DNA of 64,000 nucleotides. Source: Dyella telluris. Lineage in GTDB: Bacteria > Pseudomonadota > Gammaproteobacteria > Xanthomonadales > Rhodanobacteraceae. The notes under the pieces were generated by a model. The model was not told the origin of the DNA. It did not search any database and saw only the letters and a list, made by a program, of their open reading frames with translations. Of the stretch, positions 27,438 through 46,424 are shown one piece after another (position 1 is the stretch's first letter; the number at the start of each line of letters is the position of its first letter). The stretch is from the NCBI RefSeq assembly GCF_014297575.1, contig NZ_CP060412.1:4836001-4900000 (forward strand), in the 5' to 3' direction. The translations under genes and the position numbers were made by a program.

Positions 27438-27464
27438 GTTGGGGGCGTTTGCGTATCTGGCGGA
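27415..27464. repeat. Perfect 23-bp inverted repeat (ancestral tRNA-Ser terminator)
   Basis: CCGCCAGATACGCAAACGCC (27415-27434, then CCC) pairs with its exact complement ending at 27464 around loop AGTT. It reaches into the CCA of the tRNA-derived att copy, so before island insertion it would have been the hairpin right after the tRNA-Ser gene. Confidence 0.85.
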
Positions 27465-27471
27465 GAGAGTG
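27457..27471. other. Left attachment site of the island
   Basis: CTGGCGGAGAGAGTG is identical to 46410-46424, where it forms the 3' end of tRNA-Ser on the minus strand. The integrase gene begins 178 bp inside this site. It marks the left island boundary. Confidence 0.85.
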
Positions 27472-27602
27472 ACCGCCTGCAACTTCCGCAACGAGGACCA
27501 AGACACTGCAATGAGTTGCAAGAATAATACGTAATTTAAGCTGTATTTGCGAATAAAAGGCCCAGCGAACCGCAACAAGCCTCAACCACAATCAAGTCAG
27601 AA

Positions 27603-27622
27603 TGGCATACTGCCTGGCATAC
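27603..27622 (+). promoter_or_regulatory. Paired TGGCATAC motifs, left end (candidate integrase arm sites)
   Basis: TGGCATAC occurs at 27603-27610 and again at 27615-27622, 12 bp apart, between the left att site and the integrase start. The same pair with the same spacing occurs inside the right end. They are good candidates for integrase or excisionase arm-type binding sites. Confidence 0.6.
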
Positions 27623-27648
27623 CAAAACTCGATTCGGAGTCCCTCCCC

Positions 27649-28914
27649 ATGGCATTACTGACTGACACCAAGGCGCGCAGCGTCAAACCCGGAGGTACGC
27701 CTGTCGCGCATGGCGGAGTCATCGGACTGGCACTTCACCCCTCCCCCAGCCAGAAAGGGCTAGGCAAGTGGGTTCTCCGCTATGTCAGCCCAGTCACCAA
27801 GAAACGCCGTAACGCAGGGCTTGGCAGCTATCCGGCAGTCGGCATCGCCGAGGCAGCGCGACAGGCGCGGTTGATGCGCGAGCAGATCGCCCGCGGAGAA
27901 GATCCGCTAGAAATTAAAGCCAACGAAGCGACCAAGCCGCACACGCCTCTCCTGCGCGAGGCGGCGGAAAAACTGCACAAGGAACTGACTCCGGGCTGGA
28001 AGAATCCCAAGCATGCTCAGCAATGGATCAATACCCTAGTCGAGTACGCCTTCCCCATCATCGGCTCAATGCCCTTGGACCAAATCCAGCCGGGCCACAT
28101 TGCTGACGTACTGCGGCCAATCTGGCTGACGAAAGCAGAGACCGCCGGACGGGTGAAGCAGAGGCTACACGCCGTGATGGCCTGGGGGTGGGCACACGGC
28201 TTCTGTTTGTCCAACCCAGTGGACGTCGTGGCGCACCTCCTCCCCCTTCAACCAGGCAAGACCATCCGCACGCAGCATCAGCCAGCCATGCCCTGGCGCG
28301 CCATCCCCGCGTTTGTTGCCGGCCACCTGGAAATGCCAAGTAGCCTCGATGTCTCTCGTCAGGTGTTGGCATTCCTAATTCTGACCGCTGCCCGATCGGG
28401 CGAAGTTCGTCAGATGACGTGGAGCGAAATTGACCTAAAGGCCAGGGTGTGGACGCTACCTGCAGAAAGGATGAAGGCTAAGCAAATCCATCGCGTACCT
28501 CTGTCCTGGCAAGCGATTGCGATTCTCAAGCACCAGCAAAGCCAACACGAAAGCCTAGTGTTTCCTTCTGTGCGAGATCGAGCCCCGCTATCGGACATGG
28601 CCTTAACGACGTTTCTGCGACGCATAGATGCTGCAAGTGATGTTGCCGAACGTACCGCTACGGCACACGGATTCCGTTCCAGCTTCCGCGATTGGTGTAG
28701 TGAAAAAGGACATCCGCGCGACTTGGCAGAGCGCGCGTTGGCTCACGCAGTCCAGAACAAAGTAGAGGCGGCTTACCATCGGACGGACTTGTTGGAGCAA
28801 CGACGCCCCTTGATGCAGGCTTGGGCTGACCACGTCACTAGTCTGCTCGGAAAGGAAAAGCTAGCCAACACAGATGCCGAACGCCACGCCGAGAAGAGAC
28901 GGGCTTGGCGATGA
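27649..28914 (+). CDS. P4-type tyrosine integrase
   Basis: This 421-residue site-specific recombinase catalyses insertion and excision at the tRNA-Ser 3' end. The N-terminal DUF4102 arm-binding domain starts MALLTDTKARSVKPGG and contains KWVLRYVSP and AGLGSYPAVGIAEAARQA. The catalytic domain shows the first Arg in TAARSGEVRQMTW, the H-x-x-R box in THGFR-like AHGFRSSFRDW, and the nucleophile Tyr in VEAAYHRTDL, so it appears intact. ATG 27649 is chosen by family N-terminus; the frame is open upstream without similarity. Two TGGCATAC motifs lie just upstream and could allow autoregulation. Confidence 0.96.
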   Translation: MALLTDTKARSVKPGGTPVAHGGVIGLALHPSPSQKGLGKWVLRYVSPVTKKRRNAGLGSYPAVGIAEAARQARLMREQIARGEDPLEIKANEATKPHTPLLREAAEKLHKELTPGWKNPKHAQQWINTLVEYAFPIIGSMPLDQIQPGHIADVLRPIWLTKAETAGRVKQRLHAVMAWGWAHGFCLSNPVDVVAHLLPLQPGKTIRTQHQPAMPWRAIPAFVAGHLEMPSSLDVSRQVLAFLILTAARSGEVRQMTWSEIDLKARVWTLPAERMKAKQIHRVPLSWQAIAILKHQQSQHESLVFPSVRDRAPLSDMALTTFLRRIDAASDVAERTATAHGFRSSFRDWCSEKGHPRDLAERALAHAVQNKVEAAYHRTDLLEQRRPLMQAWADHVTSLLGKEKLANTDAERHAEKRRAWR

Positions 28915-29047
28915 GTCAACCCGACCGGACAACTTTAATCCGGGTATTTTCGAAGTACTCATCCTGCGAGCGATGATGCTTGTGAGTCACGTCTTCCGTA
29001 ATCCCATCGCATGGAATGGGTGCGGGCTTCCAGGCTCTTAGGAACAA

Positions 29048-29078
29048 AGGAGGCTTGATCCGTGGAGTCAAGCCTCCT
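29048..29078. terminator. Hairpin between integrase and HUH genes
   Basis: An 11-bp perfect stem AGGAGGCTTGA / TCAAGCCTCCT has loop TCCGTGGAG, with TTTGTT following on the minus strand. It separates two convergent genes and probably ends the HUH transcript. Confidence 0.7.
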
Positions 29079-29120
29079 CGCCATCCGGCGCCGCGCCGTA
29101 TCGCCCTCGACCACAGTGCG

Positions 29121-30317
29121 TCAGATGAACTCGTGGATCGGCCACCTGCCCCCACTCGCATCAAGCTTGCGCGGGCTCTTGCGGCGATACGAGAACGTGC
29201 TCTTGAACGCTCCATTGATGTCCGGGAGCGGTTTACGAGGCGCACCACGACGAGGAGCGGATTCGTCCCACTTCGGCATAATCCCTTTCCGCAGATTGCG
29301 ATCCTTCCCACCGCCCGTCTTGAGCTGATGGTTGCCTTTGGTCATGTAGCGAATTGCGCGACGCAACCCTTCGCGCTTGTCTTGGTCATGGACGTGCACC
29401 AAGCCCATGCCATTGTATTCAAGCCTATCCTGCCGGGCATTGTTGTTGTTGTAGCTAGAGCCGTTGCAGTGCTCGATCCAATACTCCCCGAGCTTCTGTG
29501 CGTAGGCGATGTCTTTGCAATGCTTATGGCCATCCAGCGCGACTAGCACGTGGTAGTGCATACCCCGCCGAAAGCCGTTCTCCCGCTTGCAGATCCACCC
29601 GGCCATATCAGGCACAAGATGCCTCTCTCGGAGGTCTCGAAGGAACTTCTCCAGGCTCTTGTCAGCAGCCTCTACATATTCCAGGCGCTCACCCTCAGAG
29701 CCATAGTGCGAATAGGGGTGATAGTACAAATCTATCCTTAGTATCAGGATCTTGGAATGCCTCTTGAACAAAGCATCCATATACCGCATGCAACTCATAA
29801 ACGCTGCGGCGGCATTGCGCTCACTGTTGTTCGAGAGGTACTTGAATCGCTTTGAACGGCATACACGACGGATAAAACGAACCATCCGATCGAGTGCGGA
29901 GCGCGCCTCGCCTAAGCGAAGATCAAGATCATCCCCCATGCGAGCACAGTTAAGAATTCGGACCCACTTGTCACACGCGCGAAGCGCAACCGTGATGTGC
30001 GGATTGAAGATCTGCGATCCGCAACGCTCCCTAATGAAAGGATGGTAGCTCTTGCACATGTTCCACACGTCCCTACCAAGTGGGGTCAAGCGATAGCGTT
30101 CCCCATAGCGAGTCCGTTCAAGCTTGATCGGTCCGTCGTCTACTTCCGCGATACGCTTTGCGATGCGCTCTAAAGACCCGATGAATCGATGCCAATCGAA
30201 CTCATCCGTAATGTAGACGCTTCCATCTTCGAGATAGATGCAGCCACGCGAAAAGGCGCTCAGGTGCGCATCATTCGCAATGCGACGTTTCTCATACCCC
30301 TTATTCATCAGACCCAT
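29121..30317 (-). CDS. HUH-motif protein, inovirus Gp2 / YagK-YfjJ family
   Basis: This protein of about 398 residues resembles the YagK/YfjJ C-terminal domain and inovirus-type Gp2 replication proteins. The central hallmark is RGMHYHVLVALDGH, giving H-Y-H as an HUH metal motif, preceded by ILILRIDLYYHPYSHYGSE and followed by a stretch (AQKLGEYWIEHCNG) typical of the family. Candidate catalytic Tyr residues lie downstream (YAQKLGEYW). HUH proteins nick origins for rolling-circle replication or mobilisation. ATG 30317 with GGGGGCAATT upstream is preferred. The frame stays open to 30587, and that extension would run through paired palindromes likely to be control or origin DNA. Confidence 0.78.
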   Translation of the reverse strand: MGLMNKGYEKRRIANDAHLSAFSRGCIYLEDGSVYITDEFDWHRFIGSLERIAKRIAEVDDGPIKLERTRYGERYRLTPLGRDVWNMCKSYHPFIRERCGSQIFNPHITVALRACDKWVRILNCARMGDDLDLRLGEARSALDRMVRFIRRVCRSKRFKYLSNNSERNAAAAFMSCMRYMDALFKRHSKILILRIDLYYHPYSHYGSEGERLEYVEAADKSLEKFLRDLRERHLVPDMAGWICKRENGFRRGMHYHVLVALDGHKHCKDIAYAQKLGEYWIEHCNGSSYNNNNARQDRLEYNGMGLVHVHDQDKREGLRRAIRYMTKGNHQLKTGGGKDRNLRKGIMPKWDESAPRRGAPRKPLPDINGAFKSTFSYRRKSPRKLDASGGRWPIHEFI

Positions 30318-30355
30318 AATTGCCCCCAACACCAGCTCCCATCGGCTTAGTGCCG

Positions 30356-30392
30356 ACCTGTAGGAATAGGTATTACCTGTAGGAATAGGTAA
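30356..30392. promoter_or_regulatory. Two tandem palindromes upstream of the HUH gene
   Basis: ACCTGTAGGAATAGGT (30356-30371) and TTACCTGTAGGAATAGGTAA (30373-30392) are near-identical dyads with arms ACCT/AGGT and TTACCT/AGGTAA, repeated 19 bp apart. They lie just upstream of the preferred HUH start and could be an operator or origin iteron pair. Confidence 0.6.
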
Positions 30393-30479
30393 TAGCATAG
30401 GAACCGGAAATCCCAGGACACCAATGCCCCGAGATTTCCGGCCCTTAGCTATTCGATGCCCCATCAATTGCCCAATAAG

Positions 30480-30710
30480 GCCGCCGGGGTAGGCGCGGTG
30501 AGTTACTGTTTTTTTTAGGCTATATCCGCGCTGGAGAGCAGGCTCTTGGCCGCTGTCGGCGGGCTTGCAGGTGTCTGAGATCATCAAGAAAGCAGTGCTT
30601 CCGTGACCTCCGATCCTCGGTGTGTTTCGGTCCCCTCTTCACACTGTCGACAAAATGACAGTCGCTGTACACAGTTGCTGTATCCAGCCGCCGGGGTGGG
30701 CGCGGTAAGT
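30480..30710. repeat. Pair of 24-bp direct repeats flanking a non-coding stretch
   Basis: GCCGCCGGGGTAGGCGCGGT at 30480 (24 bp to 30503) recurs with two changes at 30687-30710, both on the same strand and 207 bp apart. The second copy ends 20 bp from the alpA stop. The interval also holds a T8 run (about 30509-30516). Role unknown; an origin or regulatory function is possible. Confidence 0.65.
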
Positions 30711-30730: not shown

Positions 30731-30952
30731 TCAAGCCTGCTCGCGGCAGGCATCGATGTACTTTTGTAGCTGTTGAAGCTCGAAACCTATAGCCCCTCGA
30801 CGTTCGCCACCGCCGAGGCGGATTGGCCTTGGCATTCGAGGGTCGTACCAACGACTTTCTTTGTTGATGCGGTTTCTTATTGTGGACTCACTCAGACCAA
30901 CGAACGCACATGCTTCAGGCATTCGCAGGACTCGGTTGGTTCCGACAGTCAC
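30731..30952 (-). CDS. AlpA-family transcriptional regulator
   Basis: This 73-residue DNA-binding protein of the AlpA/phage-excisionase-like group has a winged helix-turn-helix. The family core is visible: VLRMPEACAFVGLSESTIRN, then SRWYDPRMPRPIRLGGGERR, then GAIGFELQQLQKYID. The start is GTG 30952 with GAGGTG upstream. In P4-like islands AlpA controls integrase expression and excision, and its place between the integrase/HUH part and the cargo agrees with that. Confidence 0.92.
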   Translation of the reverse strand: MTVGTNRVLRMPEACAFVGLSESTIRNRINKESRWYDPRMPRPIRLGGGERRGAIGFELQQLQKYIDACREQA

Positions 30953-31292: not shown

Positions 31293-31442
31293 ATGTTGCA
31301 GCGATTCGTAGTGGGCTATCCCTATCCGTCAATGGCGGAACACCTGTTCGTATTCGTCCTGATCTTTCTGGCCGGCAGCGTGTGGGCGGCCTGTGTTCGT
31401 CGCTATGTACAGCACCGCCTGAGGGCCCAGACTCATGCGTGA
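31293..31442 (+). CDS. Small single-pass membrane protein
   Basis: This 49-residue protein has AGGAG eight bases before ATG 31293. It has one membrane helix (HLFVFVLIFLAGSVWAACV) and a basic tail (RRYVQHRLRAQ), giving a likely N-out/C-in topology. Its last codons overlap the start of the next gene by eight bases, so the two are translationally linked. No family known. Confidence 0.65.
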   Translation: MLQRFVVGYPYPSMAEHLFVFVLIFLAGSVWAACVRRYVQHRLRAQTHA

Positions 31443-31803
31443 GTTGTCGATAGAACAGGACTGGCAGGGTGACTCCGTCGATATGACATCGCGCTGCCCC
31501 AAGTGCAGGTCCATTTACGTCGAGGCCCGAAACCTAGCCCAGCGGCTTGGCGGTGCCATCGGAGCCATCGCAGGCACCACCAGCGGCGTCGCCGTGGCAC
31601 TGTCGGGCGCGGAGCTGGGGCTTATCGCGGGTCCTTTCGGCGCCCTGCTGGGGGCGGTAGCAGGCGTGGTCATCGAGGGCATAGTTGGCGGGGCTGCCGG
31701 TTGCTTGGCCGGCGCCAAGCTGGGGAGCGCCATCGACCGGAACGTCCTGCATAACCACCTGTGCCGCGCCTGTGGCCACACCTTCACCGACAAGTCGTCC
31801 TAG
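31435..31803 (+). CDS. Zinc-ribbon protein with glycine-zipper membrane segment
   Basis: This 122-residue protein brackets a hydrophobic Gly/Ala-rich core with two CxxC knuckles: CPKC near residue 21 and CRAC near residue 111. The core (GGAIGAIAGTTSGVAVALSG, then GPFGALLGAVAGVVIEGIVG) has GxxxG spacing typical of glycine-zipper membrane insertion. A split four-cysteine zinc ribbon brought together across a membrane hairpin is an attractive reading, but it is inference. It overlaps the upstream membrane gene and is followed by a strong terminator. No family recognised. Confidence 0.7.
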   Translation: MRELSIEQDWQGDSVDMTSRCPKCRSIYVEARNLAQRLGGAIGAIAGTTSGVAVALSGAELGLIAGPFGALLGAVAGVVIEGIVGGAAGCLAGAKLGSAIDRNVLHNHLCRACGHTFTDKSS

Positions 31804-31850: not shown

Positions 31851-31882
31851 AGAGCCCGGCAAAGCCGGGCTCTATGCGTTTT
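31851..31882 (+). terminator. Rho-independent terminator
   Basis: A 10-bp perfect stem AGAGCCCGGC / GCCGGGCTCT with loop AAA is followed by ATGCGTTTTT. It ends the two-gene membrane operon and lies just before the DUF932 gene. Confidence 0.85.
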
Positions 31883-31905
31883 TGCACCTATACAAGGAGT
31901 CTGTC

Positions 31906-32868
31906 ATGCATCTGGTTCAATCCATGGCCTACGTCGGGGAACAACCCTGGCATGGCCTCGGCCATCACCTTGCCCCTCACCAACCGCTGGACGTTTGGGC
32001 GCGGCAGGCCGGCATGGACTGGCGAATCGAAGCCGCTGACGTGCAGTACGACGTCACCGACTCAACTCCCGAGGCGCTTCACGCGTTTCCGGAACAGAGG
32101 GTCCTTTACCGATCGGACACCAAAACTCCCCTGTCGGTAGTCTCTCGCCGTTACAAGGTCGTCCAACCAGCTGAGATCCTGGAGTTCTATCGCGACCTCA
32201 GTGAGGTCGGCGGCTACGAACTGGAGACGGCTGGCGTACTCAAGGAGGGCAAAAAGTTCTGGGCGTTGGCCCGCACCGGCCAGAGCGTCACCCTGAAAGG
32301 TCGTGACACCGTGAACGGCTACCTGCTATTGGCAACCGCCTGCGATGGCACCCTGGCCACGACGGCACAATTCACGTCAGTACGCGTGGTGTGCAACAAC
32401 ACCTTGGCCATTGCGCTGAGCGACAACGCCGGGACCGTCAAAGTACCGCATCGAAGTGAATTCGATGCACAGGCCGTCAAGCGCCAACTTGGCATCGCGA
32501 TCACCCCGTGGTTGGCGTTCGAGGACTACATCAAGGAGCTCGCCCGCTGTCGGGTCGCCGATCGAACCGTGGAGGCCTTTCTGCAAAAGGTGTTCGCCCA
32601 TCCGGCGTCCGGGCAGGCGCCAGGGTCCTCCGCCGTCAACGAACAAGCTGTCCAGAAAGTGTTGTCGCTATATCTAGGCCAGGGCCGAGGGGCTGAGCAG
32701 CCTTCGGCGAGGGGAACAGCTTGGGGCTTGCTCAACGGCGTGACCGAATATGTAGACCATCACCGGCGCGCACGCTCCCATGACTATAGAAGGGATGGTG
32801 CCTGGTTCGGATCGGGGGCGGCGATTAAGCAACGGGCATGGCTAGAGGCGCTGAAATTGGTGGCGTAA
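31906..32868 (+). CDS. DUF932 (phage/plasmid-like) protein
   Basis: This 320-residue protein of the DUF932/TIGR03299 group is common on plasmids, phages and islands, with no assigned activity. The family N-terminus is clear: MAYVGEQPWHGLGHHL. It continues with TPLSVVSRRYKVVQPAEILE and the conserved VRVVCNNTLAIAL, ending WFGSGAAIKQRAWLEAL. AAGGAG precedes ATG 31906; the frame is open eight codons earlier. It is preceded by a terminator, so it has its own promoter or depends on readthrough. Confidence 0.93.
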   Translation: MHLVQSMAYVGEQPWHGLGHHLAPHQPLDVWARQAGMDWRIEAADVQYDVTDSTPEALHAFPEQRVLYRSDTKTPLSVVSRRYKVVQPAEILEFYRDLSEVGGYELETAGVLKEGKKFWALARTGQSVTLKGRDTVNGYLLLATACDGTLATTAQFTSVRVVCNNTLAIALSDNAGTVKVPHRSEFDAQAVKRQLGIAITPWLAFEDYIKELARCRVADRTVEAFLQKVFAHPASGQAPGSSAVNEQAVQKVLSLYLGQGRGAEQPSARGTAWGLLNGVTEYVDHHRRARSHDYRRDGAWFGSGAAIKQRAWLEALKLVA

Positions 32869-33018: not shown

Positions 33019-33324
33019 TCACTTAGGCCCTTTTCGCCGGCCTTTTTCCTGCCCACCCAAAACCCGTTCAATCTCGGTGGCCCACTGCACGAGATCCGCC
33101 CCGCAAGCATTGCACCAATCGCGGATTTGAAGCCCATCCAAACGGATTACTCCTCGTTCGGCCGAGGTGACGTAGTTCTGAGAGCGCCCTAGTCGTTCGG
33201 CCAACGCGACCTGAGTAAATCCATGGCGTTGGCGCAGCTCTCGAAGCATGCTCAAAAAAACCTGATTTTCCGGCCGGTAGAGGGACTTTGGAGCCCGCTC
33301 GGCCAGTTCGTGAGCCCGTCCCAT
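33019..33324 (-). CDS. XRE-family helix-turn-helix regulator
   Basis: This 101-residue DNA-binding protein has a lambda-repressor-like domain in its centre: FLSMLRELRQRHGFTQVALA, then ERLGRSQNYVTSAERGVIRL, the standard XRE helix-turn-helix. The C-terminus is basic (GGQEKGRRKGPK). It lacks a peptidase or toxin partner. It is divergent from the lipoprotein gene. A palindrome, GCCAATTTTTAGTTGGC at about 33409-33425, in the spacer could be its operator. Confidence 0.88.
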   Translation of the reverse strand: MGRAHELAERAPKSLYRPENQVFLSMLRELRQRHGFTQVALAERLGRSQNYVTSAERGVIRLDGLQIRDWCNACGADLVQWATEIERVLGGQEKGRRKGPK

Positions 33325-33565: not shown

Positions 33566-34345
33566 ATGGAACTACGTCATATCGCGACCCTGACAGTCGC
33601 ATGCATAGGTCTTGCTGCCTGCGGAAGCAGTTCAATCAACAAGGTGAAAAGCAGCCCGATCAGCAATGGGCAGGCCTTTACCGTGGGCCAAGCACTGGAC
33701 AACCGAAAGGTGTGTGCGGCCACCTCGTGGGACACACATAAGGACGAGCGAAACCGCGAGATTGTTGAGTATCGCTGCGAGTTGAAGGACGCAACGACTT
33801 ACTTCAAGACTCAGACGACAGAGTGGTTAGCCAGTAACGAACAGCACGTTAAGGATGTCGCGGACGTCTACGACGGGAAGTTGCAACAGATGAAGGCCGA
33901 AGTCGATGAGGCAAAGGCACGGCTGGCTCAGGCCCAGGCGAATAAATCTTCAACAGCTGATGCGCAGACCGACTTCGATAGCCTGATTCGCGGCATTCAA
34001 AACCAGATTGACTCCGGGCAGACCCAGCTCGATGAGTACACCAAAACCTACGATCAGTTCAAAAGGGAGGCGGCTGTCGAGCGAGATCAGTCAAATTCGT
34101 TCATCAGTGGCTTCGCCGCAGTTGCGAAATCGGAGGAGGTGTACCAATGGACTATAGGCCCGAGCGGCGACCCGGTGCTGATCTACGGCAGTTACGTTCT
34201 GGAGGACAGGAGTGGCAATGTGATCAAGGAGGTGCGGTACTTCCGGCCGGACATTCGCATGGACAGCGTCGTTGCCAACAAAGCCAACAACTATGGTGAA
34301 TACAACGGCGGCGACACCACGGCATTGTTCAAGGGGATGCTGTAA
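33566..34345 (+). CDS. Coiled-coil lipoprotein
   Basis: This 259-residue lipoprotein has the signal MELRHIATLTVACIGLAAC with lipobox LAAC and acylated Cys19. The middle (about residues 85-170) is a coiled coil (KLQQMKAEVDEAKARLAQAQ, later NQIDSGQTQLDEYTKTYDQF). The C-terminal part is a compact beta domain (WTIGPSGDPVLIYGSYVLED). An outer-membrane or inner-membrane anchored periplasmic protein is expected. No family recognised; a surface exclusion or envelope defence role is conceivable on an island but unsupported. Confidence 0.75.
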   Translation: MELRHIATLTVACIGLAACGSSSINKVKSSPISNGQAFTVGQALDNRKVCAATSWDTHKDERNREIVEYRCELKDATTYFKTQTTEWLASNEQHVKDVADVYDGKLQQMKAEVDEAKARLAQAQANKSSTADAQTDFDSLIRGIQNQIDSGQTQLDEYTKTYDQFKREAAVERDQSNSFISGFAAVAKSEEVYQWTIGPSGDPVLIYGSYVLEDRSGNVIKEVRYFRPDIRMDSVVANKANNYGEYNGGDTTALFKGML

Positions 34346-34484: not shown

Positions 34485-35381
34485 TCATGTGCCGTCGGGC
34501 GCATCCTCCAACACATAGTCGTGGATGGCCCGCACGACCTGCTTTTGACGCACCGGCGGCAAGCCGAGCTTGGCGCGCTCCTCAAGCAGTCCATTGACCA
34601 CTTCGCGCGCTTGATCGCCCGCGGCGCAACCGAAGACGACTGCCGTGACCGCTTCCGCGGGGAAGTCGAGATGGCGATGCGACGACGAGGGAATGGCGAC
34701 ACGCCACTCTTCTTCGTATTCCCAGTGTTTCGATTTGCGAAAGATGGGTGCAATCACGTCGTGCGGATCAACGCTCGGATAGTCCAACTTGGGCAGTGGG
34801 CCGCCGTATTCCACCTTTTTGCACAGCCCAAACAGGTTAATGCCGTGAGCCACATCGAACTCGATACAAACGCCCTTGTGGCTCTGGCCGTAGTGTGACC
34901 ACATCAAGGTATTTTTGTAGGATTCGGCGAAACAGCAGATCCCAACCGCTTGCAGCCGCTGATGGCTGTCGTCGTTCGCGACCTGCTGAATGCCTGCCGC
35001 ACCCAACCGGGCCATGCCGTCCGCAAGACGTGCCAAATCGGCACGAGTCGCACCTTGGGCAACCGCAGTGCGAACGAGATAGGCATGTACTTCGTCCATA
35101 GCACCCAGCGTGCCGAACTGAAAGCGACACTCAAACGGATCGTTGAAGTCACTGGGGGCGCGAAGAAAAACTTGCGAATTGACCAGCATGTCCCGCAAAT
35201 TGCGCTCGTCATTTGGGCCGTCAAAGCCCCGGTAATGGTAGAGGTGGCTTGGCAGGCGGGAATGCAGCTCAGCCAGCCGTTGCCTACGTTCCTCATGGGA
35301 CAGCGCCTCGAACTCTCGCAAGTTCTCTCGCATCCTCTCGACATACGTTGCGGCACTACCTGTCATCAATTCACGCTCCAT
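34485..35381 (-). CDS. DUF2971 domain protein
   Basis: This 298-residue protein has a DUF2971 domain, a family often found in defence islands and thought to be nucleotide- or stress-related, with no defined activity. Family marks are LYHYRGFDG near residue 50, FLRAPSDFNDPFECRF, then CCFAESYKNTLMWSHYGQSH with conserved Trp-Ser-His-Tyr, and EYEEEWRVAI. ATG 35381 with AGAGG is used; other in-frame starts lie up- and downstream. It is divergent from the SMC-like ATPase across 392 bp, which could make a co-regulated pair. Confidence 0.88.
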   Translation of the reverse strand: MERELMTGSAATYVERMRENLREFEALSHEERRQRLAELHSRLPSHLYHYRGFDGPNDERNLRDMLVNSQVFLRAPSDFNDPFECRFQFGTLGAMDEVHAYLVRTAVAQGATRADLARLADGMARLGAAGIQQVANDDSHQRLQAVGICCFAESYKNTLMWSHYGQSHKGVCIEFDVAHGINLFGLCKKVEYGGPLPKLDYPSVDPHDVIAPIFRKSKHWEYEEEWRVAIPSSSHRHLDFPAEAVTAVVFGCAAGDQAREVVNGLLEERAKLGLPPVRQKQVVRAIHDYVLEDAPDGT

Positions 35382-38387: not shown

Positions 38388-41300
38388 TCAGACGTGCAAC
38401 TTCGGAAGCCCGCGCACGATCTTGATCGTCTCTAGGCTCACGGTGATCACGCGAAGAAAGAGGTCCAATGGATAACGTGGGTTCTTCATCGTCTCAATGG
38501 CCCAATCATTGGCATCGTCAACGATCCCACTAGCCTTATCTAGTTCCTTGCACTGGCGCTCGGTCACCCAGACCAAAGCAGGCTTGCCGTTGACCACATA
38601 GTCGTAGGCTTCCGCCGGGATGCCCCTGACGGTGATGAAGTTGTTGTAAATCAAGGTACTCAAGTCCTTCTCTTTCCCCTTCTTCGGCACCTTCATCTTT
38701 ACGACCCGATAGTCCTCATCGGACAGGACTCTGCCGCCCGTATCGATCTGAGCGGCATACGGGGACGCACGATCATAATTGATGTGCAAATCGGCGAGAT
38801 CGCGTCCAGCCCTGGATAGCAGCCAAAAATCACTAGCTTGCTTGACACAAGGAATTCGAGCCAATTCCTTGGAGAGATTATCGGCATAGCGCTCCCGATA
38901 ATCCGGCACATGGAATAGACCATAGACGTAGTAAAAAATGTCTTCCTTACTGATTTCCTCACCCGGATATGCGCTTTGGAAGTGCGCCAGCCCGTCATCC
39001 GTGATTGCATCTCGTCGACCCGCCGGCTTCTTATCCTCTCCTGAGAAGAGGCCTTCCGGGCTCTCTGCCTCGCCGTCCACGCCATCGTAAAGATAGAGCG
39101 GAAAGCACTGTCCGCCGTGCAGGTAGTGTAGGTTTGGGACCACATCAACCATCGATACCGTAAATGGCAATGTTTCACCCGGACCGTGAATCACAATCAA
39201 TCGATTGCTGGCAGACGCATCCGGAAGCAACCGTGGCATCTGCAAGACCATCTCATTGAAGCGGCGATTGAAGTAGAACCACTGTTTGTTGAAGGGTCGA
39301 TAGATACCCTGGATCACATCGTCAGCTTGGAACTGATAAGTCTTGCCCTTCAACAATTCTTGCTTCAGGCCACGAGACCAACTGATCTTGGTTGCATCAG
39401 CGCCGACAAATCCATCCACATTCGCTGCACGCGTTTTCCGATCCGCGTTGCCATAGGCCTCTGAAAAACGGCCAACTTCTTCGTTGTAGAAAGCGATCAT
39501 GGATCGCATGTTGGCCTCAAGAGTGCCCCTTGAAGCGTTGTAGCACCAGCTATCGCGCGACGTAAACACGCCTAGAGAGTAGTTCTCGAAAAGACGAGGA
39601 CCATCCCCCTTCTTATCGCCTATGGCGATGAATTGGGCGAAGCGATCGTCTCGCTGCCTGAGCCAATCTCCATGTTGATTTGGAGTGATGTGAACCCATC
39701 CCCCCGCCTTATCGATCCCGACGATACTTTTGAAGTCATCAATCTTTTGCAACTTCTCTTCGCGGGAGAGGTAGTCCCCAATATCGTGAAACCGGATCAA
39801 GCCATGCTCCTTGGCTGCCGGATTTTTCACCAAAAGCGTTATCGCGATGGGAGCTCGACTTCCACCCGCAAAGATCTTTCCGCCTTCTCTTCGCGAAAGC
39901 TCACCCAGCGTGCGTTGATTTCCACGCAAATGAAACACATGGATGCTGGAAAACTCCTCGGCCAAGGTCTTCCTTAATCCGTCGGTTCCATTGGCATCCA
40001 GGAAGCCACCGTTCGTGACAAAGCCGATCACTCCACTGTCGCCAAGCCGATCCGTGGCCCAGCGAATCGCGCGGATGTAACTATCGTAGAGATTGCGAGA
40101 CAGCGTCGCATTTGAGCGCGCCGCATATGTCTCCGCAATTCGCTGATCAAGATGCTTGTATTCAAGATTCTTGTTGTTCTCGTTCGCATCATCCTGCCCC
40201 ACCGCATAGGGTGGATTACCCAGAATGACTCGAATATCCAGACTTCTCTGACGTTTGCGACGGCTGCTATTGTCCACGAGGATTTGGTCAACCAGATCCT
40301 CCTTCTCATACATTTGAAACGTATCAGTTAGGCAGATACCCTCGAAAGGCTCGTATTCACCTCCGACCAAGTCGTGATACGCCTCTTCGATGTTGATCGC
40401 CGCGATGTAGTAAGCCAGCAGCACAATCTCGTTGGCGTGGATCTCGCTTTTGTACTTGTAAGGCAGTTGCTCCCGTGAAATCAGCCCGCTCTGCAAGAGA
40501 CGAGTGATGAAGGTTCCCGTCCCTGTGAACGGATCGAGGATATGGACGTTCTTGTCACCAAGCGACTGACCAAATTCAGCCTGAAGCAGGTGTGCAACGC
40601 TGTGAATAATGAAGTCAACAACCTCTACCGGGGTGTAGACGATGCCCAGCTTGTCCCTCAATTTCGGAAAAGCGTTCGCAAAAAACTTGTCATACAGCTC
40701 CACGACGATCTTTTGCTTGCCCTCAGCAGTTTTCAGACCCGAAGCTCGTTCGCGAACACTCTCGTAGAACTCCTCAAGCGTGTCGGCCTCCTTGTCCAGC
40801 CGATGCTCGTTTAAAGCGTTCAACACACCCTGCATTGCTTGGCTCATTGGGTTGTGCTGGGCAAAGCTATATCCAGCAAACAGCGCATCGAAGACCGGCT
40901 TCGTAATGAGGTGTTGCGCCAGCATTTCGATGACTTCCTCATCGGTAATGCTGTCATTCAAGTCGTCGCGCAGCTCCGCAGCGAATGCATCGAACGCTGC
41001 ACGCTCAGACGTGTTGTTGGGATTTGCGACAATTTCCCGGATGCGACTGATGTGGGTACGGGCAATCTTGTCGATATCCTTGACCCACTTCTCCCAGTAG
41101 TGGCGATCACCACACTTCTGAACAATCTTGGCGTAGATTGCCTTCTCAATGATGCCGATCTCGAAGGCCAGCTGGCCCTGGTCGGGCTTCTCGCCATACT
41201 TGGGCTCGGGCGACCCAATGCCGAACTGACCTCTTCCTGCCGCTCGGTTCGACTTTCCAACCGAGGCATTAGCCACTTTGCGCTGCACCTTGTCGGTGAC

Positions 41301-43292
41301 AGCGATGACTTCCATCTTCTTCGTGTCATGCCCGACAAGATCGAGCTTATTAATCATCGTGTCGAAACGATCGTCGTGGGAACGAAGCGCCTGCAAGACC
41401 TGCCACACCACGGCATATGTCTTGTTGTCATTCAAGGCTTGATCCGGCTCTACGTCAGCTGGAATCACCACGGGGAGAATCACATAGCCCCTCTTCTTTC
41501 CGGGCGCATTGCGCATCACGCGCCCAACGGACTGCACCACATCGACCTGCGAGTTGCGTGGGGTCAGAAACAACACTGCATCCAACGCTGGTACGTCCAC
41601 GCCCTCGGAGAGACAGCGCACGTTGGATAGAACGCGGCAGGTGCCGTCCTCTACCGGGGCCTTCAGCCACTGTAGCTTTTCTTCCTTGATGCTGGCATTC
41701 ATCCCACCATCCACGTGCTGAGCGTCGCAAGTGAGCCAAGAATCGGAGTCGATGTCCTCTGCCTCCTGGTAAGCGTCCACGACAGCCTTGAACATTCCCG
41801 CGATGTTCTTGGAGCTGACCTTGTGCGTCTTTGCACCCTTGGCAATGTCAATCACCTGGCAGAACGCCACAGCCCGCTTCATGGGCTCATGGTCGTCCAA
41901 CAGGTCATCGGTTAGCCCCTGCTTCGCCAGGGCTTTCCAACAGCCAATGATCTTCGCCGCGTCATCCACCTTGATTTGGTTGTCATCGCCTGCCAGGAGG
42001 GCTTGCAGCTTTCTATTGACGTAACTCTCCTCTACAGCCAACACAAGCACCTTGTAGTCCACAAGGAGGCCACGCTTCACCGCATCAGAAAAGGTGATGA
42101 GGAAGAGCTGCTTGCCGAACCACTCCTCCTTGTTCATTCCGTAGATTTCCACGCCGTCCCGCTCGGCTTCCGCCTCCGCTTGCGGGCTATAAATCTTCGG
42201 AGTAGCCGTCATGTAAAGGCGCTTGGCGCCTCGGATGTAGTCGGCGTCATGGACCTTGACGAAGTGGCTTTCATCCTCGTCGGCGTAGGTGTAGCCCGTG
42301 GTACGGTGGGCTTCGTCACAAACGATCAGATCGAATGCTTCCAGATCGTGGTTGTGCTGGGCATCATGGATCACATCAATGGATTGATAAGTGCTGAACA
42401 CCACGCTCATGTGTTCGTCGTCGTGGCGCACTTTCATGACCTGGGCAAGCCGGCGTGCATCCGTCGTGGCCGGGAAACGCAATTCATGGACGAAGGTTTG
42501 CACCTCGTCATCTTCCTTACGGCGCTTCTTTTTACCAACGTCGCTGTCGGAGCACACGGCGAAACTGTGAAGCGGCGTTTCGCTCTCCTGCGTCCACTCA
42601 GTGAGGGTCTGCGACAAAAGCGCGAGGCTCGGAACCAGGAAGAGCACTCGCTTACCCTTGCCCGCCTCCTGCTCTGCAATCTTCAAACTGGTGAAAGTCT
42701 TACCAGTTCCGCAAGCCATGATCATCTTGCCGCGATCGGCTTTGGACAAGCCATCCAGAACGGCCCGCACAGCACTGTCCTGGTGATCCAACAACTTCTT
42801 CTTGGCCCGCAGCTCGACCTTCTGGAGCGCTTTGAATTTGGCCCAGTCAATCTGACTGGATTCCAGTGCAAACAGATCAATCTTGCTTACCGGCGGCCGC
42901 TGATCGACAAGGGCCTCTTCGGCATGATCCGACCAGAGATTGGTCGTGCAGACGATGATGCGATGAACGAAGGGCTTCTTACCCGAAGCGGTGAAGAAAC
43001 TGTCGATATCCGCCTTCTGGAGTTTGTAGTCCTCTGCGTATAGCTTGCACTGGATTGCGTGGAACTCGCTGGTGCCACGCGTGCGAGCCACCAAGTCAAT
43101 GCCGGTGTCCCGCGCATCCATGCCCTGCTCTCGCGCCCACTCCGCATAGGTCCAGACCTTCTCGTAGTCGTCCTTGTACTTCGCTTCGTTGCGAAAGTAA
43201 GCGCAGATCAGCTCTTCAAAGTAGGTGCCCTTTTCGCGCTCGGTGACGGCGGCGTTGCGGTAGGTGTCGAGCAGATCATGCAGGGCGCTCAT
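38388..43292 (-). CDS. Type ISP restriction-modification enzyme (LlaGI-like)
   Basis: This 1634-residue single-chain enzyme combines nuclease, motor, methyltransferase and target recognition. An Mrr-like nuclease motif is visible as GIDLVARTR with AIQCK (about residues 65-83). The SF2 helicase has ACGTGKT near 193-199, CDEAHRTTG near 325 and QSVGRVMR near 610. A coupler follows, then a gamma-type N6-adenine methyltransferase with DPFTGTGTF and NPPYAVG. The C-terminal 450 residues form the recognition domain. Length and order match LlaGI/LlaBIII, which translocate and cut when two enzymes meet head-to-head. ATG 43292 is preferred over an upstream TTG. All catalytic motifs appear intact. Confidence 0.95.
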   Translation of the reverse strand: MSALHDLLDTYRNAAVTEREKGTYFEELICAYFRNEAKYKDDYEKVWTYAEWAREQGMDARDTGIDLVARTRGTSEFHAIQCKLYAEDYKLQKADIDSFFTASGKKPFVHRIIVCTTNLWSDHAEEALVDQRPPVSKIDLFALESSQIDWAKFKALQKVELRAKKKLLDHQDSAVRAVLDGLSKADRGKMIMACGTGKTFTSLKIAEQEAGKGKRVLFLVPSLALLSQTLTEWTQESETPLHSFAVCSDSDVGKKKRRKEDDEVQTFVHELRFPATTDARRLAQVMKVRHDDEHMSVVFSTYQSIDVIHDAQHNHDLEAFDLIVCDEAHRTTGYTYADEDESHFVKVHDADYIRGAKRLYMTATPKIYSPQAEAEAERDGVEIYGMNKEEWFGKQLFLITFSDAVKRGLLVDYKVLVLAVEESYVNRKLQALLAGDDNQIKVDDAAKIIGCWKALAKQGLTDDLLDDHEPMKRAVAFCQVIDIAKGAKTHKVSSKNIAGMFKAVVDAYQEAEDIDSDSWLTCDAQHVDGGMNASIKEEKLQWLKAPVEDGTCRVLSNVRCLSEGVDVPALDAVLFLTPRNSQVDVVQSVGRVMRNAPGKKRGYVILPVVIPADVEPDQALNDNKTYAVVWQVLQALRSHDDRFDTMINKLDLVGHDTKKMEVIAVTDKVQRKVANASVGKSNRAAGRGQFGIGSPEPKYGEKPDQGQLAFEIGIIEKAIYAKIVQKCGDRHYWEKWVKDIDKIARTHISRIREIVANPNNTSERAAFDAFAAELRDDLNDSITDEEVIEMLAQHLITKPVFDALFAGYSFAQHNPMSQAMQGVLNALNEHRLDKEADTLEEFYESVRERASGLKTAEGKQKIVVELYDKFFANAFPKLRDKLGIVYTPVEVVDFIIHSVAHLLQAEFGQSLGDKNVHILDPFTGTGTFITRLLQSGLISREQLPYKYKSEIHANEIVLLAYYIAAINIEEAYHDLVGGEYEPFEGICLTDTFQMYEKEDLVDQILVDNSSRRKRQRSLDIRVILGNPPYAVGQDDANENNKNLEYKHLDQRIAETYAARSNATLSRNLYDSYIRAIRWATDRLGDSGVIGFVTNGGFLDANGTDGLRKTLAEEFSSIHVFHLRGNQRTLGELSRREGGKIFAGGSRAPIAITLLVKNPAAKEHGLIRFHDIGDYLSREEKLQKIDDFKSIVGIDKAGGWVHITPNQHGDWLRQRDDRFAQFIAIGDKKGDGPRLFENYSLGVFTSRDSWCYNASRGTLEANMRSMIAFYNEEVGRFSEAYGNADRKTRAANVDGFVGADATKISWSRGLKQELLKGKTYQFQADDVIQGIYRPFNKQWFYFNRRFNEMVLQMPRLLPDASASNRLIVIHGPGETLPFTVSMVDVVPNLHYLHGGQCFPLYLYDGVDGEAESPEGLFSGEDKKPAGRRDAITDDGLAHFQSAYPGEEISKEDIFYYVYGLFHVPDYRERYADNLSKELARIPCVKQASDFWLLSRAGRDLADLHINYDRASPYAAQIDTGGRVLSDEDYRVVKMKVPKKGKEKDLSTLIYNNFITVRGIPAEAYDYVVNGKPALVWVTERQCKELDKASGIVDDANDWAIETMKNPRYPLDLFLRVITVSLETIKIVRGLPKLHV

Positions 43293-43584
43293 TGGAACAT
43301 CTTTCTCCGTCAATAGCTTAGGACGCCCTCATGGCGACCCATCCACTTCATTTTGACATGCCCTGCGTGACCAGGGACCCTGCGCGGCGACTTTTCAAGC
43401 CCCGGGGGTGCCTCTAGATTTTTGGGGAGGGCTTGTTATATTTGCGCCATGGGCGCGGTCGGCGCCTGCTGCTCACCTTGGCAAACCCTTGCGGGACGAC
43501 ATCCACTCTGACTTCGTCTGATTCCCTTCCTGTGGCGAATCTGGGCAGTGAGCACCTGGCGTTTGCCCGCAGAAGGAGTCAGTC

Positions 43585-44313
43585 ATGCATTTCATTCCGA
43601 CCTATCCCTCTAAGGTCAAGAACCTCAAGAAGCAAGCTAAGCGTCTCCAGCGGGAAGGCGCCGGTTCTCACGTGTCTCTGCTTGACCAGGTTGCCCAGAG
43701 CGCGGGTTACGATCACTGGAACCATGTGATCAAGTGCCTGGAGGAGACAGAGCGAACCCAAGCTGCTCGAGGCCTTCTCGCTGAAATTGAGGCTGTCATC
43801 TTGGCCGAGCAAGCCGGCGAAATCCGGATAGTCCGAACCGGCCCCGAGGCAACCCGGAGTCAGCCGTTTGTTCTCTTCTCCACAGGAACAGGCGACGCGT
43901 GGCTGCTCGAGCCGACGCACGATCGCGCGATTTGCCTGGTCTGGCGAGGTGAGCGTCAGCAAGCACACATCAGGGATCTACCGACCAAGCTTGAAATTCT
44001 CTGGGACGGCACCTTCGAACTACGCGGCGAATTCTTCATCGTCGAAACCGAGCATCCTGAGATCGGGGCGCGTGCCATCGCGGGCTTCCCCTTGGATCGG
44101 CTCCGCCCTTATTTGGAAGCCTCCAGATCGGTCGAACGGAAGTTTGATGAGATCATTGGTCAAGAGGACACAGTACCGCTCACCCCAGATGTCGTTGCAC
44201 ACCTGACCAAGACCGGCTGGGACGCAAAGCAGCTCGCCGCCGCCGCAAGGCAAGGGGCTCGCTACTCACCAGCACGAGATTCCGTCTTATTCCCTCCCGT
44301 TGTGGAGGCGTGA
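43585..44313 (+). CDS. Hypothetical protein within the defence cluster
   Basis: This 242-residue protein has a helical N-terminal segment (KVKNLKKQAKRLQREGAG, then LLDQVAQSAGYDHWNHVIK) resembling the short helical motif placed before several plasmid- or toxin-linked domains (often annotated near glyoxalase-superfamily proteins). The rest (about residues 80-200) is beta-rich, with LRGEFFIVETEHPEIGARAI and LDRLRPYLEAS, and no recognised catalytic motif. It lies between the Type ISP gene (divergent) and the GHKL ATPase gene (convergent), with a 12-bp hairpin on its 3' side. It may be cargo-specific, such as a regulator or accessory factor. Confidence 0.7.
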   Translation: MHFIPTYPSKVKNLKKQAKRLQREGAGSHVSLLDQVAQSAGYDHWNHVIKCLEETERTQAARGLLAEIEAVILAEQAGEIRIVRTGPEATRSQPFVLFSTGTGDAWLLEPTHDRAICLVWRGERQQAHIRDLPTKLEILWDGTFELRGEFFIVETEHPEIGARAIAGFPLDRLRPYLEASRSVERKFDEIIGQEDTVPLTPDVVAHLTKTGWDAKQLAAAARQGARYSPARDSVLFPPVVEA

Positions 44314-44341
44314 CCCGCAACCATCTGGTGAACCGCCACTA

Positions 44342-44371: not shown

Positions 44372-44374
44372 CCA

Positions 44375-46123
44375 TCAGGGCAATCTACGCAAGAGCCATT
44401 CGACCTGTCGTCTTGCCGATGAAATGACATCGCCGAACAGCATGATTTCTGTATTTGGTTCCACATAAGCGCCGAGAGGCAAATCGCTCCCCCGCTTCCC
44501 ACCGAGCAGCAACACCCGAATGGACTTGCCAGTGTTAGAGGCAAGCTGGCTTCGGTAAGACGTAACCTGCTGGTAGTCCTCGTGCCGCAAAGCGTGTCCC
44601 GGGCGCTTGAACTCGATGAGCAAGTACTCGCCGTGTAGATTTTCGTTCAATAGCAGATCGGGCCGTTTGGATGCATTAGAACCTTTGAACGCCTTACCGA
44701 GGTAGTCCTCGATCTGCCTCTTCAATGTTTGGTTCGAACTGAAAAGTGAAAACTGAGAACCAAAAATCCATAGATTGGACGCAATCGCTCGGTGCATCTG
44801 GCTTTCGAGCGTATTGGTTTCGTTCGCCAGGCGTTCGAGTTGATCCAGGTAGAGTGACCGCCCTTCCGCTTGCTGGACCAGATACGACATGTCCGCAAGG
44901 CCGAACTGGTCCAACGCATCCGCAATGGCGCCGATGTCACCCCGTGTAGCCGCGGCGATATGTTCCATGAGCGCTCTGTAGTCGGAGCGTTCGAGTGCCT
45001 CGAGCAAGACAAACACCATTGGCTCGACTTTTGACTCGGGCTCTCCGTAATACCGGTCCAGCACGCGCTTGATAGCCCGCTCTGCAAATTCACGCTTGTA
45101 CTCAGGAAGTTTTGCCAGCCGTTCCTGAACAGCTTTTTGCATACGAGCCTGAGCGAGCTGTATGTCTCGACCGTATTGTTCCTCAAAGCCTGCTCGCAGC
45201 TTCGCCTGAGCGAAGGCCTCAACCGCCTGGGCAAGCTCACTATTCTCGACGATACCGTCCCAACCAGCCGTCACATGCGGCCCAAGACCATCGGCATCGA
45301 TCTCTCCGAAAACTTTATTGAGCAACTTGCGGGGGAAGTCCTCGCTCCGATCTAAGCCAAAGAAGCTTGGCTTCCCGATTGCCTTACCATCGACACGAAG
45401 AGTTATGCCAGGTTGGCGCAGCCCTGTCTTTCCATCGCTGATGGCAAAACGCAAACGGACCTCGCCCACGCTCGGAAGCGTCTCTACCTCCTCGTTGTAC
45501 GACCCTCTTATGTCATCGATGTCGAGCCGTTTTCCATTGACAAAGATGGTGAAGTCGTCCTGCCGTCCATACTCCTGCAGAAGCACCTGACGCAGTTTGT
45601 CTGGATCGGGATAGGCAAGACCCTGGTGCAACTGTGTCAGGACAATCGTTGTGCCATGCCGGTCTTCTGAACAGGCTTCAACCTGATGGCTGATCGGCAA
45701 CTGCTCGATATCTTGGACCTGCGCCAAATCCTCCATGGTCAGCCGAAGCCGACTGCATCGACCTCTTGCTCGGGTTTCAAGAGCCATGACAGACGCGGCC
45801 ATGAGCCCGGCGAACTTGCCGATGCCTTTGCGCCCCTTGATCAGCCGCTTCTTGGCCGCTGTTCGCTCGCCTCTTCTAGAACGTCGGTCCCTCGCAATGA
45901 AGAGGTAGTGACGGGAGATCTCTTCCTCAGTCATCCCGCTGCCATCGTCCGTAATCGTCAGCGGCTCGTCTGTCATCGGGGCCGGCAAGTCAATGCGAAC
46001 CACGTCAGCATCCGCATCCCAGGCGTTGTCAACGAGCTCCTTGATGGCCTTTTCGGTTGACGCGTACTCCTGACTCAGCAAAGTCGCTAGACGCGAGTCG
46101 ACCTGAAAACGAAGCTTGTCCAT
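44375..46123 (-). CDS. GHKL ATPase with C-terminal PD-(D/E)XK-like nuclease motif
   Basis: This 582-residue protein has an N-terminal Hsp90/MutL/MORC-type ATPase: E29 and N33 in KELVDNAWDADA, ITDDGSGM near 57-64 and GRKGIGKFAG near 98-107. A transducer-like part follows (LRFAISDGKTGL), then helices (RAGFEEQYGRDIQLAQARMQ and following). The last 96 residues contain RPDLLLNENLHGEYLLIEFK, with D489, E504 and K506 spaced as in PD-(D/E)XK nucleases. This resembles bacterial paraMORC-type proteins associated with restriction systems. ATG 46123 has GGGGATCA before it. It is the last island gene before tRNA-Ser. Confidence 0.85.
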   Translation of the reverse strand: MDKLRFQVDSRLATLLSQEYASTEKAIKELVDNAWDADADVVRIDLPAPMTDEPLTITDDGSGMTEEEISRHYLFIARDRRSRRGERTAAKKRLIKGRKGIGKFAGLMAASVMALETRARGRCSRLRLTMEDLAQVQDIEQLPISHQVEACSEDRHGTTIVLTQLHQGLAYPDPDKLRQVLLQEYGRQDDFTIFVNGKRLDIDDIRGSYNEEVETLPSVGEVRLRFAISDGKTGLRQPGITLRVDGKAIGKPSFFGLDRSEDFPRKLLNKVFGEIDADGLGPHVTAGWDGIVENSELAQAVEAFAQAKLRAGFEEQYGRDIQLAQARMQKAVQERLAKLPEYKREFAERAIKRVLDRYYGEPESKVEPMVFVLLEALERSDYRALMEHIAAATRGDIGAIADALDQFGLADMSYLVQQAEGRSLYLDQLERLANETNTLESQMHRAIASNLWIFGSQFSLFSSNQTLKRQIEDYLGKAFKGSNASKRPDLLLNENLHGEYLLIEFKRPGHALRHEDYQQVTSYRSQLASNTGKSIRVLLLGGKRGSDLPLGAYVEPNTEIMLFGDVISSARRQVEWLLRRLP

Positions 46124-46335
46124 TGATCCCCGTCCCTGTTCTGGCATGTTGTCTGACGGGAGTTTACGGGAGTCATGCGAGATAACTAGGACGCCAGCCT
46201 AAGGCTCTCCCGCCCAATACCTGCGCTCAACGCCGAAGACAATGCGGAGCTGTATTGGAGTTTGCACAACGAGCGTATCGATGCCGAAGCGATGATCCAG
46301 ACACGCAACGGGGCACAACTAGCATCAAACGCCAA

Positions 46336-46355
46336 TGGCATACCCTGTGGCATAC
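46336..46355 (+). promoter_or_regulatory. Paired TGGCATAC motifs, right end (candidate integrase arm sites)
   Basis: TGGCATAC at 46336-46343 and 46348-46355, again 12 bp apart and in the same orientation as the left pair. It lies 55 bp inside the right att site. Confidence 0.6.
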
Positions 46356-46376
46356 TGAAATACAAGGCAAATAAAA

Positions 46377-46397
46377 AGCCCTTGATTTACAAGGGCT
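46377..46397. terminator. Island-supplied terminator for tRNA-Ser
   Basis: Stem AGCCCTTG / CAAGGGCT around ATTTA, with TTTTTATT after it on the minus strand and ATTTTT on the plus strand. It sits 13 bp beyond the tRNA-Ser 3' end, inside the island. Confidence 0.85.
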
Positions 46398-46409
46398 ATT
46401 TTTCTATTA

Positions 46410-46424
46410 CTGGCGGAGAGAGTG
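46410..46424. other. Right attachment site of the island (tRNA-Ser 3' end)
   Basis: CTGGCGGAGAGAGTG, the same 15 bases as at 27457-27471. Here it forms the acceptor-stem 3' strand and CCA end of tRNA-Ser. Confidence 0.85.

Follow-up and report, generated by a model that had tools for sequence, protein, structure and literature searches.

An island inserted at the 3′ end of tRNA-Ser(UGA)

We analyzed a 64,000-bp stretch of the Dyella telluris genome (contig NZ_CP060412.1, positions 4,836,001 to 4,900,000; hereafter the window), in which a sequence-only reading had placed a defense island with its own integrase between positions 27457 and 46424. In agreement with the repeats reported there for both ends, CTGGCGGAGAGAGTG is present as an exact 15-bp direct repeat at 27457–27471 and 46410–46424, with 18,953 bp from core to core. 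When up to 2 mismatches were allowed, CTGGCGGAGAGAGTG was matched 6 times in the window, compared to a mean of 0.29 in shuffled sequences; the other 4 near-matches are on the minus strand within a 181-bp tandem repeat (26849–27437). ARAGORN identified a single tRNA gene in the window, an intact tRNA-Ser(UGA) on the minus strand (46411–46500), which is the target gene and had been read correctly; the tRNA-Ser was also the sole match of an Rfam scan. As the tRNA begins at 46411, 14 of the 15 repeat bases are its 3′ end, and the equation of the whole repeat with this 3′ end fails only for base 46410, which lies just outside. The repeat at 46410–46424 (plus strand) thus corresponds to the attR core with the restored tRNA 3′ end, and that at 27457–27471 (plus strand) to the attL core, a displaced tRNA-Ser 3′ fragment in the same orientation as the intact 3′ end at the opposite end of the island. 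The 14-mer of the tRNA 3′ end was found in 28 copies in 19 of 20 genomes of the same genus, and a reversed control pattern in none. The guanine-plus-cytosine (GC) content is 0.52 to 0.61 within the island and about 0.65 across most of the flanking DNA; it is also low to the left of the island (0.57 to 0.63 at 22–27 kb).

If the island was inserted at this site, relatives should contain an empty site, as the sequence-only reading had predicted. A query in which the left flank was joined to the core and the tRNA gene was therefore compared with 19 tRNA loci of the same genus, more distant loci of the same collection being left out. It aligned over the junction in 10 of them (L002, L003, L005, L007, L009, L010, L011, L014, L015, and L017), so that the flank left of 27457 joins tRNA-Ser directly, as predicted; no junction-spanning alignment was obtained for the remaining 9. 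At the empty site of G007 (L010), the window sequence is matched without a difference over the 39 bases to the left of the 15-mer. Two patterns named beforehand as contrary to an insertion were not seen in the genus: there were no cargo-free relatives with both cores around unrelated DNA, and the 27- to 46-kb stretch showed no genus-wide synteny, one of 20 genomes having the integrase with a threshold of E ≤ 1e-60. Second cores in relatives belonged either to another island (G005, G004) or to a copy of a repeat unit near the tRNA gene (G008, G009, G011), and in G001 the second core was on a separate 3.6-kb contig. An ordinary variable region beside a tRNA gene, in which the 15-bp match arose by chance or from a repeat, could draw on the near-copies of the core in the 181-bp repeat left of 27457 and on the island of G004, which sits in such a copy. 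This explanation is hardly credible and was rejected on the basis of the empty sites, which join the flank exactly at the core, and of the integrase relatives described below, in which core and tRNA variants agree in 18 of 18 cases.

The integrase and its relatives

The left end of the island encodes a tyrosine integrase (27649–28914, plus strand). Its gene is a single open frame of 421 amino acids (aa) with an ATG at 27649, and R, H-x-x-R, and Y motifs are present, which we presume to have their usual roles in this protein. The completeness claimed for this integrase is supported by the intact frame and by three Pfam domains over their cut-offs (Arm-DNA-bind_3, with 48 bits versus a cut-off of 27, Phage_int_M, and Phage_integrase), but its designation as P4-type is not backed by the NCBIfam model for P4-like integrases, which gave 153.9 bits, below the cut-off of 434. 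At E ≤ 1e-40, only distant matches with 33 to 36% identity were found among the sampled members of the genus (G006 and G013), and 69 of 299 genomes of the order had a match.

Cores were analyzed at the 30 best integrase places (window included) and on one viral contig. In 25 of the 30 places, a tRNA-Ser 3′-end core with at most 2 mismatches was present 181 to 335 bp upstream of the matched int start; these cores were oriented as int and were not followed by tRNA sequence. The core was missing at L275, L285, L291, L292, and L293. As a control, 116 stretches of the int genes were compared with the core, and none matched. Among 23 genomes drawn from these places, 18, representing four families of the order, had a tRNA-Ser gene downstream of int on the same strand at a distance of 4.4 to 52 kb, and none had a tRNA-Ser gene only upstream of int. 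The variable bases of the int-side core were those of the downstream tRNA-Ser in 18 of 18 cases, compared to 6.37 expected for a random gene. The isoacceptors targeted in 13 sister loci according to ARAGORN were UGA (6), GGA (3), CGA (2), and GCU (2), the loci L304, L305, and L308, which stop short of the tRNA end, being outside this count. In a tree of relatives found by similarity and two other integrase-like proteins (L278 was omitted owing to a stop), the rows without a core were scattered; with this composition, the question of a single clade is outside the reach of the tree.

In the window, int is located at the end away from the tRNA gene (27649–28914 versus 46411–46500), as had been noted. 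The accompanying statement that this position is less usual holds, on thinner evidence, in comparison with other islands at the same site, but not among the relatives of the integrase: as a downstream tRNA-Ser with a matching variant was present in 18 of the 23 genomes, the position recurs across the relatives in which it could be assessed. The accessible part of the Islander paper (PMC4383910) contains no statement on islands with a distal integrase gene.

Candidate arm sites, core sites, and terminator

On both strands of the window, TGGCATAC occurs in 4 copies, at 27603, 27615, 46336, and 46348. They form two pairs, one per island end, in each of which the two start positions differ by 12 bp. 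The equal spacing at both ends and the similar distances in most sister islands suggest that the pairs at 27603–27622 and 46336–46355 (both plus strand) are candidate int-side and tRNA-side arm sites to which the integrase may bind. In the attP frame, the arm pairs are located about 63 to 77 bp from the tRNA-side core and about 143 to 165 bp from the int-side core, and the int-side arm sites lie 27 to 46 bp ahead of the int start codon. For a comparison comprising 12 sister islands and the window island, we determined the longest word common to both arm regions. Its mean length was 10.2 in the 13 cognate pairs, 6.1 in 156 non-cognate pairs, and 5.8 in shifted control windows of the same islands; a common word of at least 8 bases was present in 10 of 13 cognate but only 17 of 156 non-cognate pairs. 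The attL core together with 27472–27476 reads GGCGG-N9-CCGCC, which is probably a pair of core-type integrase sites. A script for terminators detected a hairpin between the arm pair and the tRNA gene in the window island and in 5 of the 12 sister islands; in the window, it is of the Rho-independent type (AGCCCTTG; 46376–46404, minus strand), lies just 3′ of the tRNA gene, and was carried in by the island.

According to the available portion of the paper on KplE1 (PMC2951348), the integrase promoter of that element overlaps attL and is repressed by the integrase. As 27 bp separate the end of the int-side arm sites in the window from the int start codon, a similar autorepression of int is predicted.

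The arrangement TGGCATAC-N4-TGGCATAC was also found in at least 119 stretches of viral contigs (L146 to L264), in some as longer series. These are possibly arm sites of related integrases.

Backbone genes

The integrase gene is followed by a gene for a Rep-like protein of the inovirus Gp2 or YagK/YfjJ type (29121–30587, minus strand). Its YagK/YfjJ-like Pfam matches are weak and below the cut-off, several plasmid relatives are annotated as inovirus-type Gp2, a homolog is found at the same place in an island of G134, and no relative was found in the viral contigs. The gap upstream of rep is occupied by an open reading frame (ORF) for a small AlpA-like protein of 73 aa (30731–30952, minus strand; PF05930, 20.4 bits, cut-off 21, E = 0.0025), a probable excisionase or regulator. 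Among the 13 sister islands searched, 6 contained AlpA over the cut-off (G134 a and b, G289, G271, G278, and G303), in one of the G134 islands at the place matching the AlpA-like ORF of the window. In CP4So, AlpA functions as an excisionase, as stated in the accessible part of PMC5148205. Next to it in the window are the genes for a small zinc-ribbon protein with a glycine-rich middle (31435–31803, plus strand; weak Pfam matches below the cut-off) and for a DUF932/TIGR03299 phage-plasmid-like protein (31882–32868, plus strand; profile matches). These backbone genes are followed by genes for a helix-turn-helix (HTH) regulator (33019–33324, minus strand; HTH_31 and HTH_3 over the cut-off) and a coiled-coil protein (33566–34345, plus strand), which gave only coiled-coil type matches below the cut-offs, has a 37% homolog in the G289 island, and begins with what we take to be a lipoprotein-like start.

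In an island of G134, which belongs to another genus, int (80% identity), rep (36%), the zinc-ribbon gene (57%, same place), and the DUF932 gene (66%) are found with order and relative orientation kept. With the AlpA-like candidate of the window included, the backbone order int-rep-alpA-Zn-DUF932 is common to the two islands. A type ISP restriction-modification gene (61%) is located deeper in the G134 island, on the strand opposite, relative to int, to that in the window.

Probable defense cargo

The largest cargo gene encodes a type ISP restriction-modification (R-M) enzyme of 1641 aa (38388–43313, minus strand) with Type_ISP_C, ISP_coupler, and Mrr_cat_2 over the cut-offs and a PADLOC match of 2335.8 bits. 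Its matches in PDB were LlaBIII and LlaGI, that with LlaBIII (4xqk) covering residues 23 to 1640, and the Mrr nuclease, helicase, coupler, methyltransferase, and ISP specificity domains are all present in the one chain. Near the tRNA end, a paraMORC3-type protein is encoded (44375–46147, minus strand), in which a GHKL ATPase (HATPase_c_3, 94.3 bits, over the cut-off) is joined to a PD-(D/E)XK nuclease. Across 49 aligned sequences, N33, D59, G61, G63, G100, G102, D489, E504, and K506 were invariant, the last three being positions of the C-terminal nuclease. The architecture is that described for paraMORC3 by Iyer et al. 2008 (PMC2292703, in the part available) and is shared by VcSduA, which protects against phages according to the accessible text of PMC12137116. 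As the Shedu domain SduA_C gave 16.7 bits, below the Pfam cut-off of 27, we do not claim Shedu membership and call the protein VcSduA-like in architecture only.

Relatives of the GHKL-nuclease in genome contigs were studied in the best 80 of 149 matches. R-M genes of other kinds were frequent among their upstream neighbors, with ResIII in 11 of 75 cases and Methylase_S in 4 of 75, a neighborhood that the available sections of PMC2292703 describe for MORC/paraMORC families. In diverse bacteria, type III (mod-res) or type I R-M genes were followed, immediately or after a short distance, by GHKL-nuclease genes (L048, L049, L051, L056, L057, L060, L062, L047, L052, and L106). The GHKL-nuclease as a fixed partner of the type ISP enzyme was rejected: 83 GHKL loci, searched with the other proteins of the window, gave a sole type ISP match, of 68 aa (L117), and the G134 pieces contained a type ISP match and no GHKL match.

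Two further proteins are candidates. One is an SMC/RecF-like AAA ATPase (35774–38335, plus strand; SMC_N over the cut-off), possibly involved in defense or DNA processing; it had matches on 27 plasmid records and is present in 8 of 299 genomes of the order, the window's own included, and no relative was found in the scan of genome contigs. The other is a DUF2971 protein (34485–35486, minus strand), identified by a profile match and as the PADLOC candidate PDC-S31. A two-gene system of both was not supported, as the incomplete gene tables of four plasmid relatives list no DUF2971 neighbor and the G005 island gave an SMC match and no DUF2971 match. A 242-aa protein (43585–44313, plus strand) had only weak matches below the cut-offs. 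The label of a defense island is thus supported by homology, strongly for the type ISP enzyme and well for the paraMORC3 protein, with the SMC-like ATPase and the DUF2971 protein as candidates only. The accessible part of a paper on defense islands in S. maltophilia (PMC11680222) mentions no tRNA-Ser site.

The SMC-like ATPase (53 to 60% identity) and the HTH regulator (78%) have homologs in the island of G005 at the same tRNA gene, and the GC content varies along the window island. Both observations would fit stacked elements in one tRNA gene, for example an older island of the G005 type that lost its integrase and left the SMC and HTH genes behind. As no more than two exact cores were found, the arm sites link the two outer ends with each other, and no internal core or second integrase was detected in the frames scanned, we consider stacking quite unlikely.

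Sister islands of the integrase group

For the cargo of the sister islands, we scanned 98 of 104 non-integrase ORFs of at least 150 aa from 13 of 15 regions, six overlapping or short ORFs being left out by eye. Phage_capsid was matched by 4 of the 98 proteins, two of which were placed, in L295 and L298, each with about 10 kb between the cores. Other phage-type matches were Prim-Pol (L295), VapE (L301), and tape measure (L307). Defense-type matches included an AriAB-like protein in L299, PDC-S06 and a type II methyltransferase in L294, and a GajB-like helicase in L308, and an XhoI-type endonuclease match occurred somewhere among the 98 proteins. As capsid genes are found in some sister islands and defense genes in some, one kind of integration module appears to serve both satellites and defense elements.

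We favor, with some reserve, the following wider interpretation. One tyrosine integrase group, found in four or more families of the order, is specialized on tRNA-Ser 3′ ends and swaps isoacceptors (UGA, CGA, GCU, GGA) via a few core bases. A fixed attP layout leaves int at the non-tRNA end with its promoter overlain by its own arm sites, and the same module serves capsid-bearing satellites as well as non-capsid defense elements with an int-rep-alpA-DUF932 backbone, including the island in the window.

The phage-type genes of the sister islands also suggest another history, in which the module once belonged to a capsid-bearing satellite or prophage, defense genes accreted later, and the remnant in the window is no longer mobile. 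Consistent with such decay, capsid, Prim-Pol, VapE, and tape-measure genes are carried by sister islands, and neither these nor transfer genes were recognized in the window island. On the other hand, the integrase frame, both cores, and the four arm sites look intact, the AlpA-like gene is present, and the island of another genus has the same non-capsid backbone, for which reason the window island seemingly represents an element lineage of its own. We therefore regard a decayed satellite as doubtful.

A second island of the integrase group in tRNA-Ser(UGA) was found in G134 (G134:C1:1892400-1905000, L307), besides one in tRNA-Ser(GCU).

A probable integrated mobile element with predicted defense cargo

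The insertion site, the empty site, the anatomy of the island, its gene order, and the recurring geometry can be read directly from the DNA. On this basis, it is very probable that 27457–46424 is an integrated mobile element of the CP4-57/P4 type in tRNA-Ser(UGA) with defense cargo. For its formation and function we infer the following model. The integrase, binding two core half-sites and four arm sites, would have recombined attP with an attB formed by the 3′ end of tRNA-Ser(UGA). With the copy carried by the island, the tRNA gene would have regained its 3′ end at attR and received a new terminator in place of the displaced one, and the original tRNA 3′ end with its hairpin flank would have been pushed to 27457 (attL). 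In the integrated state, the integrase may repress itself via the arm sites ahead of its start codon, the Rep-like protein may act in replication, and the AlpA-like protein may trigger excision. Incoming DNA would be cleaved by two cargo products, the type ISP R-M enzyme and the GHKL-gated nuclease, with the SMC-like ATPase and the DUF2971 protein as further candidates, and the cargo may in this way protect the present host against phages.

Several observations weigh against this reading. Excision is predicted from the sequence, and no transfer gene (relaxase, type IV secretion system, capsid) was recognized by Pfam in the 14 island proteins, so that movement between cells is left unexplained. 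The PF05930 match of the AlpA-like protein is just below its cut-off, and no AlpA match was found within 7 of the 13 sister islands. Five of the 23 genomes (G167, G270, G234, G054, and G246) had no tRNA-Ser gene within 60 kb on the contig; G246, on a 1.7-Mb contig, is a real miss. The number of TGGCATAC copies is by itself not rare (1.24 expected, and 4 copies reached in 2 of 100 shuffles), and therefore their placement rather than their number is the evidence. The windows for the arm regions were set after the arms had already been seen, 3 of the 13 islands (G303, G278, and G134b) had no common arm word above background, and the script found no terminator in 7 of the 12 sister islands. Finally, the left flank (17600–26840) showed no synteny within the genus except for a piece in G007.

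Comparison with known systems

With the P4-like islands of the CP4-57 and CP4So type, the window island shares a PF13356-type integrase, a candidate AlpA-like regulator, a candidate YagK/YfjJ-like Rep, and the 3′ end of a small-RNA gene as insertion site. Unlike these islands, it targets tRNA-Ser, has int at the non-tRNA end, carries R-M and GHKL-nuclease genes as cargo, and includes DUF932 and zinc-ribbon genes in its backbone. Capsid-bearing phage satellites of the cfPICI-like kind are represented by the sister islands L295 and L298, which have the same integrase group and target type and a capsid gene; in the window island, by contrast, no capsid, packaging, or primase gene was recognized by Pfam among the 14 proteins. 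The type ISP enzyme has the same domains as LlaBIII and LlaGI over nearly its full length. The paraMORC3 and GHKL-Shedu (VcSduA) proteins share the N-terminal GHKL ATPase and the C-terminal PD-(D/E)XK nuclease with the window protein, which differs from Shedu in its subthreshold C-terminal Shedu match. The islands of G001 and G005 at the same tRNA-Ser have the same attB and a terminator visible beside the tRNA gene, but they carry a different, longer integrase-like protein adjoining the tRNA, and neither of these proteins gave a BLAST match to the window integrase.

Defense islands of this kind at tRNA ends are common and already known; the wider interest lies in the integrase group, whose geometry recurs and whose target rule can be read. 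Defense genes ride on elements whose borders are often guessed. As borders, attP layout, and target rule could here be read to the base and recur across the order, sister islands can be found by core and integrase and their cargo can be mined. The agreement between core and isoacceptor variants provides a rule, amenable to testing, for the change of tRNA targets by an integrase, and the position of int away from the tRNA gene would separate integrase expression from the tRNA promoter.

Other islands and repeats at the tRNA-Ser site

The tRNA gene of G001 is adjoined by an ORF whose Phage_integrase domain is over the cut-off, and the corresponding ORF beside the core in G005 is below the cut-off (21.5 versus 27.1 bits). 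In G017, the ORF beside the core was recognized by a crude motif only and had no Pfam match, with a Phage_integrase domain over the cut-off about 10 kb away, and in G004 an integrase over the cut-off is located beside a core that lies in a repeat, at a distance of 178 bp from the tRNA gene. These integrase-like ORFs indicate that the tRNA 3′ end is a site of repeated insertion. The island of G004 (L134, oriented 1778–14379) is a different one and sits in the repeat-borne copy of the tRNA 3′ end, a natural secondary attachment site. In the G005 island (L127), the SMC-like homolog at 10312–12880 is present as two overlapping ORFs and is probably broken or frameshifted; ORFs at the far end of this island resemble arsenic resistance genes.

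In the left flank of the window island (17600–26840), the GC content falls toward the island, and this part may be another acquired stretch. The adjoining 181-bp tandem repeat has 3.3 copies, its units contain a near-copy of the tRNA-Ser 3′ end in inverted orientation, and a hairpin left of the core pairs the repeat-borne near-copy with the tRNA end. Related repeat units were present in 20 of 20 genomes of the genus, in several cases beside tRNA-Ser genes. Upstream of the tRNA gene, one to three copies of a 38-bp 5′ part of tRNA-Ser were present in G008, G013, G017, G018, and G038, which in G038 lie in tandem with steps of about 200 bp.

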